This document shows positions 5,366 through 18,194 of a stretch of 21,677 bases of DNA, one piece after another. The notes under the pieces are model-generated. The model worked only from the letters and a program-made list of their open reading frames with translations, made no database searches and was not told the DNA's origin. How positions within the stretch are numbered: the first letter of the stretch is position 1; the number at the start of each line of letters is the position of its first letter. The translations under genes were made by a program, and so were the position numbers. Source of the DNA: Actinomycetota bacterium (GTDB taxonomy: Bacteria; Actinomycetota; Actinomycetes; Mycobacteriales; Micromonosporaceae); assembly GCA_005885115.1 (NCBI GenBank), contig VAXX01000095.1, positions 1-21,677 of the forward strand, given 5' to 3'.

Positions 5366-7201
5366 ATGCCACGCTCCGCGCTCGGCCGGGCGGTACGGGA
5401 TCCCGTACTGCTCGGCCTCGCCGTGGGTACCGCCGTCCTCGTCGCCGGGTACCTCGCCGGCGTCGGTGACCGGGCCGACCGGGTACGCACGCTCTGGGCC
5501 GCCCAGCCGGTCCTGGACGCGCTGCTGGCCCGGGTCACCTGGCGGATCGCCCGGTCCGGCAGCACCCCGGCGCCCGCCCGCCGGTTCTTCCACGCGTTCA
5601 CGGTGGCCGGCTGCTCCTTCGCGGTCGGCGACGGGTACCAGACCGTCCTGGAGTTGCGCGCGAGTACCCCGACCAGCGCCGCCGGTACCGTGCAGAGCGC
5701 CTTCTTCGTGGTCGGCGTGATGGTCCTGCTGATCGTGATGCTCACCTACCCGGCCGCGGTGGACAGCCCCCGGCAGCGGCTGCGGTTCTGGCTCGACGCC
5801 GGTACGGTCCTGGTCGGCGCCGGTGGCCTGGTCTGGGTCCTGACCGCGGTGCCCGGCGTTCATCTGGGCAGCACGCTGCTCAGCGCCGGGCTGCTGATGG
5901 TGGCCGCGTTCGCGGCGGTGAAGCTGCTCCTGAGCGGGCAGGCGCCGATGACCCGGGCCGGCGCCTGTCTGTGTATCGTCGCGACCGCCCTGCAGGGTGT
6001 CGCGGTCTCCCTCGCCGGGCGCGGGGACGACGGGCTGGGCCTGGCTCTGCACCTGCTGCCCTCGGTCCTGATCGTGGTCGGACCCCGGGTGCAGGAGCTG
6101 GAGATGCGCGCCGATCCCCGCTGGGCCGGCCGGTACCGGCGGCGCTCGTACAGCCTCCTGCCGTACCTGATGGTCGTCGCCGCCGACGCCGCCCTCGCGT
6201 ACGCCCTGCGGGGCCACGCCGACGTGAAGGTCTGGGGCAGCCTGGGCGCCGTACTGGTGATCACTGCCCTGGTCGTGCTGCGGCAACTGGACAGCTTCGT
6301 GGACAACCAGCAGCTCATCGGCCGGCTGGACGTGAGCCTGGCCGAGCTGGGCCGGCACGAGCAGCGGTTCCGTTCGCTGCTCGCGCACTCCTCGGACATC
6401 ATCCTGCTGCTCGACGCGGCCGGGACCGTGACGTACACCAGTCCGGCCGCCCAGCGTGTACTGGGCCTGCCGCCGGAGCGGCTGGTCGGTCGGCGGGTCG
6501 GCGACCTGGTACACCCGGACGACCTGGCCGAGACGGTGACCCGGTTCCGGCAGGCGCAGGACCGCCCGCACGCGACCGTGGTCCTCGAAGCGCGGCTGCG
6601 CCACGCGGACGGGAGCTGGCGGCGGCTGGAGGCGGTCGGCACCAACCTGCTGGACGACCCGAGCGTGGCCGGCATCGTCTGCAACGCCCGCGACGTCACC
6701 GAGAACCGCGAGTTCCAGGAGCGGCTGCGTTACCTCGCGCTGCACGACTCGCTGACCGGCCTGCCCAACCGGGCGCTGTTCACCGAGCGGCTGACCGCCG
6801 CGACCGGCGGCGTCGCGCTGCTGCTGATCGACCTGGACGATTTCAAGATGGTCAACGACACGCTCGGGCACGCGGCCGGCGACGCGGTGCTGTCCGCGGT
6901 GGCGCAGCGGCTGCGCGGCTGCATCCGGCCCGACGACACGGCGGCCCGGCTGGGTGGGGACGAGTTCGCGGTACTCCTGCCCGGCGCCTCGGCCGCGGTC
7001 GCGGCCCGGGTGGCCGACCGGCTACGGGCGGCGCTGGCCGAGCCGGTACTCGCCGAGGGTGCGCTGATCCCGGTCCGGGCCAGCATCGGGATCGCCGAGA
7101 CGGTGGCCGGCGACGGCGAGGTGCTGCTGCGCCGGGCGGACTCGGCCATGTACGCCGCCAAGCAGCGTGGCAAGAACGGACGCCAGCGGGTACCCGGCTG
7201 A
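5366..7201 (+). CDS. Membrane PAS-GGDEF diguanylate cyclase
   Basis: A 611-residue inner-membrane enzyme predicted to make cyclic di-GMP from two GTP. It starts at ATG 5366, two bases after the protease stop. No ribosome site is evident, so coupling is likely. Residues 1-305 carry about eight hydrophobic segments forming an unnamed membrane sensor region. A PAS domain covers about 332-445 (FRSLLAHSSDIILLLD ... ARDVTENREF). The GGDEF domain covers about 452-605 (LALHDSLTGLPNRALF). The active-site motif GGDEF is at 530-534. An RxxD inhibitory (I-site) motif, RPDD at 521-524, lies the canonical five residues before it. Both suggest an active, product-inhibited cyclase. The ligand sensed by the membrane part is unknown. 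Its stop lies 4 bases from the convergent methyltransferase stop. Confidence 0.9.
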   Translation: MPRSALGRAVRDPVLLGLAVGTAVLVAGYLAGVGDRADRVRTLWAAQPVLDALLARVTWRIARSGSTPAPARRFFHAFTVAGCSFAVGDGYQTVLELRASTPTSAAGTVQSAFFVVGVMVLLIVMLTYPAAVDSPRQRLRFWLDAGTVLVGAGGLVWVLTAVPGVHLGSTLLSAGLLMVAAFAAVKLLLSGQAPMTRAGACLCIVATALQGVAVSLAGRGDDGLGLALHLLPSVLIVVGPRVQELEMRADPRWAGRYRRRSYSLLPYLMVVAADAALAYALRGHADVKVWGSLGAVLVITALVVLRQLDSFVDNQQLIGRLDVSLAELGRHEQRFRSLLAHSSDIILLLDAAGTVTYTSPAAQRVLGLPPERLVGRRVGDLVHPDDLAETVTRFRQAQDRPHATVVLEARLRHADGSWRRLEAVGTNLLDDPSVAGIVCNARDVTENREFQERLRYLALHDSLTGLPNRALFTERLTAATGGVALLLIDLDDFKMVNDTLGHAAGDAVLSAVAQRLRGCIRPDDTAARLGGDEFAVLLPGASAAVAARVADRLRAALAEPVLAEGALIPVRASIGIAETVAGDGEVLLRRADSAMYAAKQRGKNGRQRVPG

Positions 7202-16210: not shown

Positions 16211-17272
16211 GTGATCTCAGTGCTGGTGGTGGACGACTCCGTGGTCGTACGGCGGCTGATCGCGGCTGCCGTCGAGGCGGAGCCGGGCATCCGGGTGGCC
16301 GGTACCGCCGCCAACGGCCGGATCGCGCTGAACAAGATCGAGCAACTGGCCCCCGACGTGATCACGCTCGACATCGAGATGCCGGAGCTGGACGGCCTGG
16401 GTACGCTGCGCGAGCTGCGCCGGACCAACCGTACCCTCCCGGTGATCATGTTCAGTACGCTCAGCGTCGCCGGCGCTGCCGCGACCCTGGAGGCGCTGGC
16501 GGCCGGCGCCACCGACTTCGTCACCAAACCGGCCCACGCGGGCAGCTTCGCCGAGTCCCAGCGGATGGTCCGCGAGCAGCTCATCCCGAAGATCCACTCG
16601 CTGGGCGGCGGGCGTCTCCGGCCGACGCCGGCGCGCGTCCCCGCGCCCGCGCCGCGCCGCACCGGCCGGCTGGCGGCGCTCACCATCGCCTCCTCCACCG
16701 GCGGGCCGGACGCCCTGACCAAGGTGCTCGGCCGGCTGCCGGCAACCCTTGCCGTACCGGTCCTGGTCGTCCAGCACATGCCGCCGGTCTTCACCAAGAT
16801 GTTCGCCGAGCGGCTGGACCGCGCCTGCGCGATCAAGGTGGTGGAGGCGGTGGACGGCATGCCGGTCACCCCGGGCGTGGCGTACCTCGCCCCGGGCGAC
16901 TACCACCTGACCGTGGTCGGCCGGCCCGGCGCGGCCACCACCCGGCTCACCCAGGAACCGGCGGAGAACTCCTGCCGGCCCGCCGCTGACGTGCTGTTCC
17001 GGTCGGTCGCCCAGGTCTACGGCGGGGCCAGCCTCGCCGTCGTGCTGACCGGGATGGGGCAGGACGGGCGGCACGGGGCCGAGCGGCTGCGCCAGGCCGG
17101 TGCCGAGGTGGTGGCTCAGGACCAGGCCAGCTCGGTCGTGTGGGGCATGCCCGGCGCGGTGGTCGCGGCGGGACTGGCCGATGCGGTGCTGCCGCTGGCC
17201 GAGATCGGCGGGTACCTGGCCCTGCGCGCGACCACGGCCGCCCCGGCCCAGACCAGGGCGGTGGCGTCGTGA
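16211..17272 (+). CDS. cheB: Chemotaxis response regulator / protein-glutamate methylesterase CheB
   Basis: A 353-residue two-domain enzyme that removes methyl groups from chemoreceptors and is activated by phosphorylation from CheA. GTG 16211 has GGGAG six bases upstream. The receiver (1-120) has VVDDS, the phospho-Asp54 in ITLDIEMPELDG, and Lys106. An Ala/Pro/Arg linker covers about 136-153. The methylesterase domain (about 155-340) contains the catalytic triad: Ser162 in ASSTGGP, His189 in VVQHMPP, and Asp285 in LTGMGQDG. All are intact. It lies 40 bases after the unknown gene, and its stop is followed by the 80-base repeat that separates it from cheR. Confidence 0.95.
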   Translation: MISVLVVDDSVVVRRLIAAAVEAEPGIRVAGTAANGRIALNKIEQLAPDVITLDIEMPELDGLGTLRELRRTNRTLPVIMFSTLSVAGAAATLEALAAGATDFVTKPAHAGSFAESQRMVREQLIPKIHSLGGGRLRPTPARVPAPAPRRTGRLAALTIASSTGGPDALTKVLGRLPATLAVPVLVVQHMPPVFTKMFAERLDRACAIKVVEAVDGMPVTPGVAYLAPGDYHLTVVGRPGAATTRLTQEPAENSCRPAADVLFRSVAQVYGGASLAVVLTGMGQDGRHGAERLRQAGAEVVAQDQASSVVWGMPGAVVAAGLADAVLPLAEIGGYLALRATTAAPAQTRAVAS

Positions 17273-17354
17273 GCGAGCGTCAGCGAGCGAACCACGGGCT
17301 CAGCGCCTCGGTGCCGCACGGCGACGGCGAGCGAAGCGGGGTGTCGTCGTGAGC
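17261..17354 (+). repeat. 80-base inserted unit with near-perfect duplicated ends between cheB and cheR
   Basis: The 14 bases at 17261-17274 (GTGGCGTCGTGAGC) recur with one mismatch exactly 80 bases later at 17341-17354 (GTGTCGTCGTGAGC). The interior carries repeated GAGCGAGCG/CAGCGAGCGAA words. It resembles a dispersed AGCGAGCGAA-type element that I recall at many gene boundaries in Micromonosporaceae (recollection, not checked). Deleting one 80-base unit would make the cheB TGA and the cheR GTG overlap directly as GTGA, so the unit looks like an insertion into a coupled junction. Confidence 0.55.
17269..17352 (+). CDS. 27-codon minicistron created by the cheB-cheR repeat
   Basis: GTG 17269 overlaps the cheB stop (GTGA, 17269-17272) and opens a 27-residue frame beginning VSERQRANHGLSASVPHG. 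It ends at TGA 17350-17352, which overlaps the cheR GTG start in the same GTGA form. The peptide is hydrophilic and resembles no family. Its likely effect is to carry ribosomes across the inserted repeat and keep cheB-cheR translation coupled. Whether the peptide is made is unknown. Confidence 0.3.
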   Translation: MSERQRANHGLSASVPHGDGERSGVSS

Positions 17355-18194
17355 CTGTCGGAGGCGGACTTCGCATACGTGGCTGGCCTGGTCCGGCGGG
17401 AGTCCGCGATCGTGCTCAGCCCCGGCAAGGAGTACCTGGTGGAGGCGCGGCTGCTGCCGGTCGCTCGACAGGCCGGGGCGGCGAGCCTCGCCGACTTCCT
17501 GGACGCCCTCCAGCGCCGGCCCGACCCGGCGGTACACCGGTGCGTGGTCGACGCGCTGACCACCAACGAGACGTCCTGGTTCCGGGACCGGGAGCCGTAC
17601 ACCGCGCTGAGCGGGACGGTGCTGCCCGAGCTGGTGTCCGCCCGTACCGCGACCCGGACCCTGCGGATCTGGTCGGCGGCCTGCTCCAGCGGTCAGGAGC
17701 CGTACAGCCTGGCCATGACCGTGCAGCAGGACCTGCCGGCGGGCTGGCGGTACCACGTCACCGCCACCGACATCAGTACCGAGATGATCGGGCGGGCCCG
17801 GTCCGGCGAGTACAGCCAGGTCGAGGTCAACCGGGGGCTGCCGGCGCCGCTGCTGGCGCGTTTCTTCACCCCCAGCGGTACCGGCTGGCGGATCAGCCCC
17901 GCGCTCCGCGAGAACGTCACGTTCCAGCAGATGAACCTCGCCGCGCCGCTGCCCTCGATGGCGCCCTTCGACGTGATCTTCCTGCGCAACATCCTGATCT
18001 ACTTCGACGTCGAGACCAAGCGCACGGTGCTGCGTAACGTCGGCCGGCTGCTGCGCCCCGACGGGTACCTGTTCCTCGGCGCCGCCGAGACGACCATCGG
18101 GGTCGACGACAGCTTCGAGCGGGTGGCCATCGGGCGGACGTCGGCGTACCGGCCCCGGGTACCGGTGCCGGCCAACACGGGAGGCAACAGATGA
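17349..18194 (+). CDS. cheR: Chemotaxis protein methyltransferase CheR
   Basis: A 281-residue enzyme that methylates glutamates on chemoreceptors using S-adenosylmethionine, opposing CheB. GTG 17349 is chosen over the longer open frame because upstream codons are the shadow of cheB and the repeat. It also overlaps the minicistron stop. The N-terminal helical domain (about 1-75) leads into ALTTNETSWFRD, the family's TTNET-F motif. The SAM-binding core follows: IWSAACSSGQEPYSLAM, the acidic ATDIST, and FDVIFLRNILIYFD, with FLGAAET near the end. All key motifs are intact. Its stop overlaps the next start by ATGA at 18191-18194. Confidence 0.94.
   Translation: MSLSEADFAYVAGLVRRESAIVLSPGKEYLVEARLLPVARQAGAASLADFLDALQRRPDPAVHRCVVDALTTNETSWFRDREPYTALSGTVLPELVSARTATRTLRIWSAACSSGQEPYSLAMTVQQDLPAGWRYHVTATDISTEMIGRARSGEYSQVEVNRGLPAPLLARFFTPSGTGWRISPALRENVTFQQMNLAAPLPSMAPFDVIFLRNILIYFDVETKRTVLRNVGRLLRPDGYLFLGAAETTIGVDDSFERVAIGRTSAYRPRVPVPANTGGNR

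Follow-up and report, generated by a model that had tools for sequence, protein, structure and literature searches.

The unit between cheB and cheR

The window, a stretch of 21,677 nucleotides from a Micromonosporaceae genome (contig VAXX01000095.1 of assembly GCA_005885115.1), carries the genes cheB and cheR separated by an 80-bp unit that contains a 27-codon reading frame, hereafter the minicistron (Table 1). Pfam domains support the identities of both genes (CheB_methylest in cheB; CheR_N and CheR in cheR). The cheB stop codon is the TGA within a GTGA at 17269-17272, the GTG of which opens the minicistron; this frame runs from 17269 to a TGA at 17350-17352, which lies in the GTGA that starts cheR. 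A preliminary description of this DNA had pointed to these two overlaps and to a pair of near-identical ends, and both were confirmed in the sequence: GTGGCGTCGTGAGC (17261-17274) and GTGTCGTCGTGAGC (17341-17354) agree at 13 of 14 bases and are spaced exactly 80 apart. The comparisons reported below led us to interpret the unit, with a probability of roughly 0.84, as a small mobile element that resembles the mycobacterial interspersed repetitive units (MIRUs), namely a portable coupling minicistron that lands at start codons.

A 14-base target duplication was rejected as the origin of the matching ends: the ends of other copies differ, and cheB of a same-genus relative ends in GTGCTGTCATGA. 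All that is repeated at both ends of the unit is DTGA (D = A, G or T), usually DTGAGC. A known RNA family was also ruled out as the identity of the unit, as an Rfam search of positions 17150-17450 returned no family at E <= 10.

Table 1. Features at the cheB-cheR junction, in coordinates of the window
Feature	Position	Strand	Basis
cheB (response regulator receiver and methylesterase)	16211..17272	+	Pfam PF00072, PF01339; sequence
First 14-base near-duplicate (cheB's own end plus GTGAGC)	17261..17274	+	sequence
Probable mobile unit, 80 bp (first GTGA to the base preceding the second GTGA)	17269..17348	+	repeats elsewhere; absent from relatives
Minicistron, 27 codons, VSERQRANHGLSASVPHGDGERSGVSS, GTGA overlap with both cheB and cheR	17269..17352	+	sequence
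Predicted 5' terminal hairpin (unit positions 1-24)	17269..17292	+	pair counts; pair 1-24 covaries
Predicted 3' terminal hairpin (unit positions 48-84)	17316..17352	+	covariation over 63 units; fold of the window copy
Shine-Dalgarno-like GGGG, 7 nt upstream of the cheR GTG	17338..17341	+	sequence
Second 14-base near-duplicate (3' end of the unit plus cheR GTGAGC)	17341..17354	+	sequence
cheR (CheR_N and CheR methyltransferase), GTG start in GTGA	17349..18194	+	Pfam PF03705, PF01739

Copies in the same genome and across the family

A BLAST search of the window's own genome, which is incomplete (3.47 Mb, 78% complete), retrieved four further copies of the unit (E values of 7.9e-23, 6.3e-17, 1.7e-11 and 1.5e-5). 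A covariance model of the unit found an additional copy on contig C385 (E = 1.2e-11), giving a total of six copies in this genome at E <= 0.001, with a seventh match counted at E <= 0.01. The C385 copy (5906-5989, minus strand; locus L370) was missing from the first BLAST list, and its final DTG is the start of a frame that, judged by eye, encodes an ABC-transporter-like ATPase.

Across the Micromonosporaceae, the 5' core of the unit, searched as a pattern with up to three mismatches, was found in 90 of 300 genomes from 9 of the 44 genera, with a maximum of 49 per genome; a control with the reversed pattern gave 0 among the matches listed. A strict form of the whole unit was found in 34 stretches, whose named records are Micromonospora, Planosporangium and Micromonosporaceae. 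The preliminary description had regarded a lack of further genomic copies as evidence against an inserted element; copies were found in the same genome and throughout the family, at gene starts.

The unit was read in context in 194 loci (100 chosen among the matches listed in the family scan, the 34 strict-form stretches, and search results for the rest), where 187 distinct copies with the core pattern (at most three mismatches) lay away from the ends of the loci. Because copies were chosen by their 5' core, those with decayed or different 5' ends were missed, for example the MSERSERT type seen in L246, L247 and L249. At the 147 sites read, units were 80, 77, 74 or 71 bp long; these sites are not independent, as the array of L176 was counted twice (identical contexts were merged) and orthologous sites were included.

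Tandem arrays of two to nine matches per site were found, with nine matches at 80-bp spacing at one site. Among 43 distinct pairs of neighbouring cores, 33 were 80 bp apart, four 77 bp and four 71 bp, and all 41 of these spacings equal 2 modulo 3; arrays in genome G037 are spaced at 74 bp. The gene start occupied in L176 is also present in L246, L247, L249, L255 and L266, marking one conserved gene, and in Micromonospora species this start carries from none to nine units, two types of unit, or remnants. This variety reflects repeated or old insertion at a single site.

Empty sites in relatives

In the comparison of cheB-cheR junctions 106 of 121 genomes gave a match, many through the repeat alone, and of the 30 loci fetched one was the window's own. 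The unit was absent from the orthologous junction in all 29 relatives read. In 26 of these 29, the upstream frame has 100 codons or more and ends in a four-base DTGA overlap; two of the others read TGATG and one has an unclear start. In the same-genus relative the junction consists of GTGCTGTC followed by ATGAGCCTG. The preliminary description had proposed that removal of one unit would restore a direct overlap between cheB and cheR, which is the arrangement found in the 26 relatives, and had named as the contrary outcome a spacer conserved in all relatives, which none of the 29 has. The start codon of cheR is GTG in the window (17349) and ATG in 27 of the 29 relatives.

Empty sites were also found for six insertions in Micromonospora (L062, L065, L066, L077, L083 and L078), where the upstream flank of relatives joins the start codon directly at DTGA, indicating that one unit was inserted exactly before DTGA. 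Since L065 retains the target ATGAAC, the unit must supply its own TGAGCG on the 5' side. The empty site reads DTGACC and the occupied one ATGAGC in the case of L083 (5 of 5 relatives), L077 (its sole relative) and L078 (its nearest relative, L277); other relatives of L078 have GTGAGC or ATGAAC. These differences suggest that the 3' joint may sometimes bring GC along, or that TGAGC sites are preferred. The 3' joint is TGAGC or TGAGT at 121 of 144 sites with a downstream gene; among 72 ordinary coupled junctions taken from these loci the figure is 19.

A search with ten sites (30 loci read of the 51 matches listed) returned no other relative for L002 and L092, relatives with an unclear start for L004 and L005, and a relative carrying a related unit for L003; the search for empty sites of L168 returned matches in its own genome only.

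Insertion at start codons

By a downstream-gene test, in which the presence of a gene was judged from open length and codon-position GC content without a gene finder, 144 of 147 sites are followed by a gene; 142 of these join it at a DTGA, and four of the 144 reach it only via one further short frame. When we applied a stricter gene-start test, in which the frame before the start must be noncoding, it held for 141 of 144 unit ends versus 300 of 2822 control DTGA words, the controls being other DTGA words on the same strands. An upstream gene ends in the first TGA of the unit, forming a coupled junction, at 79 of the 144 sites; such junctions are resembled by 77 of the 2822 control words. The base preceding the first TGA, which lies outside the search pattern, is A in 162 copies, G in 23, T in two, and never C.

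The proteins encoded downstream fall into 109 clusters, a conservative count of the sites. Nineteen different downstream proteins were scanned and include ABC transporter permeases, a mycothiol synthase, an Mce protein, and a subunit of an NADH-quinone oxidoreductase or Mrp antiporter. These context tests therefore indicate that units target the start codon of a DTGA, whether it is coupled or not. The earlier proposal that units enter GTGA junctions while keeping coupling intact is supported by these comparisons, but the unit is not restricted to junctions and goes to start codons in general. That description had also asked how often units occupy GTGA or ATGA junctions and carry an open frame: besides the 79 coupled sites, 182 of the 187 frames read end in DTGA.

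An open frame without a conserved peptide

The minicistron has the standard length of 24-27 codons in 174 of the 187 copies, and in all 135 copies with a DTGA exactly 80 bp on, the frame between is open. Among 103 distinct units of one type not a single in-frame stop was found, versus 24.3 expected when the same base changes are placed randomly. This expectation is rough because of the shared ancestry of the units, and the +2 frame, which is stop-free in the consensus, is the better control; stops occur there in 27 of the same 103 units.

Selection for a peptide sequence was not apparent in the same frame. Changes at codon positions 1, 2 and 3 numbered 336, 456 and 481 (402, 412 and 459 when permuted), and synonymous codon changes were not in excess (208 to 760, versus 249 to 819 permuted). 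A same-genus type in which the 5' loop is one base shorter reads MSERSERT and is still 80 bp long and open (L246, L247, L249), and in other families similar DNA modules are read in other frames (MSERSERI..., ...PGAKRGRA, ...GEEVA). The absence of stops, the lack of synonymous excess and the use of other frames together show that the units conserve the openness and length of the frame and not a protein, and a peptide function was rejected given the nearly equal change at the codon positions and the lack of synonymous excess.

Exit Shine-Dalgarno sequence and terminal hairpins

A Shine-Dalgarno (SD)-like 4-mer occurs within 25 nt before the downstream start at 140 of 144 sites, most commonly at a gap of 7 nt. 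One also precedes the unit's own start at 116 of 144 sites, as 5' flanks are often SD-like in these G-rich genomes. The mean duplex energy of the 3' end with the anti-SD sequence is -9.6 kcal/mol, versus -7.3 kcal/mol for the same bases shuffled, and all three sequence types seen at the 3' end (GAGCGAAGCGAGG, AAGGAGGAA and GAGCGCAGCGAGGAGC) contain this exit SD.

The predicted 5' hairpin has GC pairs broken by GA/GA internal loops, a GNNA loop, and the start codon of the minicistron at its base. Its conservation results partly from selection, as unit positions 2-25 belonged to the search pattern, and folded alone as DNA it is weak. The 3' hairpin was traced from single folds, through mutual information between alignment columns, to counting on 63 ungapped units. 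These 63 were preselected for a DTGA exactly 80 bp on, an AGCG within positions 58-71 and less than 90% mutual identity, and remained after four rows gapped by MAFFT (L042, L071, L098 and L103) were dropped from 67 units. Five of the seven column pairs with the highest mutual information lie on the hairpin formed by positions 48-84, and another is pair 1-24; top pairs also include neighbours outside the structure, such as 58-76 and 56-78. The 3' arm of this hairpin holds the next start codon, paired with an upstream CAU or CAC.

Over the 63 units, 88.7% of the cells in the 3' stem are paired, versus 80.5% after shuffling, and 70 cells are changed on both sides versus 21.8. The covariation score is 0.215. 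Shuffling gives 0.100, with none of 500 shuffles reaching the observed value, and sliding the partners gives no more than 0.066; shuffles leave the relatedness of the units in, whereas slides remove it but are biased towards a structure derived from this very alignment. Not all stem pairs hold, 60-72 being unpaired in 31 of 63 units. At least eight of the ten outer pairs can form in 91% of 126 units of 80 bp (6% with a shuffled middle), 81% of 26 units of 77 bp (5%), 25% of the four units of 74 bp (9%) and 44% of the nine units of 71 bp (0). G-U cells outnumber A-C cells, 70 versus 18, indicating that the folding sequence is the coding strand, as RNA or as single-stranded DNA.

Of the 63 units, 61 have a GNNA 5' loop and 62 a GNA 3' tip, both partly through the choice of units; in particular, the tip count is partly circular because AGCG was preselected. 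When units are not preselected, the region near the 3' end contains GCGNAGC in 102 of 126 (80 bp), 8 of 26 (77 bp), 2 of 4 (74 bp) and 8 of 9 (71 bp), and in 11 of 29 units from other families. The window copy keeps 11 of 13 outer pairs of the 3' hairpin and has a GCGAAGC tip; folded as DNA this hairpin has -10.5 kcal/mol (z = -2.2), and the base opposite the first base of cheR is a C, which pairs with the G. Folding energies of whole units as RNA are unremarkable (mean z of -0.9 for 67 units under mononucleotide shuffling; z of +1.2 for the window unit), so the case for the hairpin rests on covariation and not on energy. The RNAalifold consensus of the 67 units contains the 5' hairpin only, with 4 pairs.

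Occurrence beyond the family

Of the 394 genomes of the class that were scanned, 59 had a match to the covariance model at E <= 0.01, in some cases a weak one; the matching genomes belong to 12 families and to 22 of 138 genera. About four genomes would be expected by chance at this threshold, and the E-values are rough. We read in context 29 matches outside the window's own genome. For these only the frame and the gene context are independent evidence, because the model itself contains the DTGA ends and the hairpins. Twenty-eight of the 29 have a frame open over their full length; 28 satisfy the downstream-gene test, the remaining one continuing into another unit; and in 19 the first TGA is also the stop codon of a gene upstream. 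In one further locus (L208; family f15, genus g95), 32-bp tandem repeats resemble the 5' module of the unit (GTGAGCGGTAGCGAGCGAAACATAGGCACA) and contain stops.

A scan of the phylum at E <= 0.001 matched 13 of 336 genomes, eight of which lie outside the class and match weakly. Five of the outside loci were read, of which three (L364, L367 and L368) carry a different repeat, with the same GGAGCGNAGCGAGG-capped palindrome and no minicistron, and two begin like the unit. One of the latter, L365, has a unit-like stretch (GTGAGCGAGCTTGCGAGCGAACC...) with an open frame from GTGA to GTGA before another frame, and is possibly the same design in another class.

Comparison with mycobacterial repeats

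In genus g45, which we take to be Mycobacterium, a MIRU core used as an approximate query matched 104 of 218 genomes, frequently as tandem copies 50-53 bp apart. Twelve of these loci were fetched and eight folded and detailed; in six of the eight a frame stops in the DTGA of the next gene. The g45 copies share with the present unit the exit SD and, by eye, a GAGCGNAGCGA core with a free middle base. They differ in that their spacing, mostly 50-53 bp (46-57 seen), is not always 2 modulo 3, and in having at least two reading frames (MQSEAMRRSGA or AERSDEEERR) and only one such module. The present unit has in addition a 5' TGAGCGAGCGNNAGCGAGCGAA hairpin and a 3' hairpin that closes on the next start codon, and its 5' half is not common to the mycobacterial copies: its 5' core was found in 0 of 25 g45 genomes, and the whole-unit model gave weak matches in three of the same 25 (E of 3e-4 to 1e-3).

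In excerpts of the published work, MIRUs are described as apparently mobile elements that insert at start codons and whose own open reading frame couples to the target gene at -4 nt, with a likely minimal effect on expression (PMC12548453). Their length is given as ranging over 40-100 bp (PMC2734929), with individual lengths of 77 and 53 bp (PMC4213456), both of which are also 2 modulo 3, like the spacing of the present unit. The present unit corresponds to this description in its size and scatter over many sites between genes (71-80 bp, 147 sites), in its co-oriented small frame that overlaps the next gene at DTGA, in its insertion at start codons, evidenced here by empty sites in relatives, and in its tandem arrays of variable number. 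The preliminary description had considered a repeat that enters a coupled junction without breaking it an unusual compromise between parasite and host. Dispersal and empty sites support such a compromise, but the idea is not new, as mycobacterial MIRUs have already been described in this way (PMC12548453). Descent from MIRUs is unproven, as the shared GAGCGNAGCGA motif is too short. The two nevertheless work alike; what is new here is the occurrence of this design outside mycobacteria, the exit SD, and the covarying hairpin that encloses the start and in many units is capped by a mini-hairpin loop. In the open-licence PMC literature we found no report of such units outside mycobacteria.

Discussion

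The sequence comparison supports a small mobile element through its dispersal, the insertion of single units at DTGA, the tandem arrays, the open frame without peptide conservation, the exit SD and the covarying hairpin. We infer further that ribosomes translate the minicistron, that access to the next gene is controlled by the hairpin, and that the unit owes its movement to an enzyme. The unit would insert at a gene's start codon, which at roughly half of the sites read belongs to a DTGA overlap inside an operon. The upstream gene, or the target's own ribosome-binding site, would then feed ribosomes to the start codon of the unit, and these would translate the frame of 24-28 codons and stop in the TGA that overlaps the next start, where the SD near the 3' end of the unit would help them to pass to the next gene. 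The 3' hairpin, formed by the last 37 bases of the unit, probably holds the next start closed until the minicistron has been translated, in which case coupling would be preserved and not bypassed. Units would afterwards multiply in tandem at the site. Translational coupling has been discussed in terms of unfolding and re-initiation models (PMC12548453, in part); the covarying 3' hairpin over the downstream start may be a structure of the unfolding type, though whole-unit energies are not unusual.

Several observations weigh against this interpretation. No upstream gene ends in the first TGA at 65 of 144 sites by the frame test, and the plain downstream-gene test is lenient, as 1657 of the 2822 control DTGA words, mostly inside genes, also pass it. 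Five of 187 frames have no DTGA end and 13 of 187 are of nonstandard length; in L032 and L164 the stop of the unit is gone and its frame continues in phase through the next gene (by eye ribD-like and transporter-like, respectively), adding an N-terminal extension. Spacings of 69 bp (L041) and 78 bp (L123) violate the 2 modulo 3 rule, and the frames fuse there; one array in G037, at 75 bp, departs from it as well. Some occupied sites do not match the empty sites of relatives in the bases past the 3' TGA and, in certain cases, in the start base. Counted by pairs and not by cells, the stem pairs changed on both sides number 10 versus 7.8, with 24 of 500 shuffles as high. Finally, no mover was found; the candidate scanned for was the Y1 transposase (PF01797).

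That transposase is central to one alternative, in which the unit is a repetitive extragenic palindromic (REP) element or a REP doublet forming a hairpin (REPIN), moved by a Y1 transposase (REP-associated tyrosine transposase, RAYT, or TnpA-REP). Such elements are described as short, non-autonomous, palindromic and dispersed (PMC3116915 and PMC8266576, in part), and the present unit, short and dispersed, with two imperfect palindromes able to form hairpins, no gene for movement and one strand favoured by its G-U cells, resembles them. It differs in carrying a reading frame and in sitting in frame at start codons. Moreover, PF01797 does not track the copies: nine of the 15 copy-rich genomes lack it, among them the richest (G174), and it occurs in two of the 14 genomes in which the pattern had no match. 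These 14 have zero copies by pattern only, and other types occur in at least two of them, G003 (with two model matches) and G204 (at L246). The absence from copy-rich genomes argues against a REP-type mover, and we consider this origin improbable. Extraordinarily stable DNA mini-hairpins have a GNA or GNNA loop on at least two G-C pairs (PMC4686876, in part), which are the loop types of the 3' tip and the 5' loop of the unit, and by analogy mini-hairpins may play a role at the ends of the element. That work concerns synthetic DNA, unlike the present element, and the 3' GCGNAGC mini-hairpin is lacking in the majority of 77-bp units and in 18 of the 29 from other families.

It has somewhat more in its favour, though it is still unlikely, that the unit is a regulatory leader minicistron of the host with a start-masking hairpin, in which the number of units serves as a dial. 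The covarying hairpin over the start codon and the varying number of tandem units, up to the nine matches at one site, would fit such a device, as would the report for a repeat of M. tuberculosis that longer arrays go with higher mRNA of the next gene (PMC2734929, in part). However, 109 downstream clusters, empty sites in relatives and the lack of amino-acid conservation describe a dispersed element and not a regulon; some sites may have been domesticated as regulators. That the unit spread for a functional 27-residue peptide is very improbable. A common start, MSERQRANH, which stems partly from the search pattern, and a frame intact in most copies would suit this explanation, but the three codon positions change to a similar extent, synonymous changes show no excess over permutations and other lineages use other frames. 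A purely local duplication, or a spacer left by gene decay, was suggested by the near-identical 14-base ends and can be practically dismissed, being refuted by the other genomic copies, their common structure and the relatives without a spacer.

The mobile minicistron extends the MIRU idea from mycobacteria to a wider actinobacterial design. A broader and more doubtful extension is that one superfamily of mobile minicistrons spans the Actinomycetes with MIRUs as a branch, its ends acting as mini-hairpins in single-stranded DNA transposition and the 3' hairpin, once transcribed, gating the next start. If so, a single structure would be transposon end and translational lock in one; the peptide itself would carry no meaning, and selection would act only on the open frame, on a length that keeps the exit overlap, and on the exit SD. 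The terminal hairpins offer a handle for tracing the mover. The units also provide numerous natural replicates of the insertion of one cassette, in some cases paired with empty sites, and lend themselves to the question of whether translational coupling proceeds by unfolding or by re-initiation.
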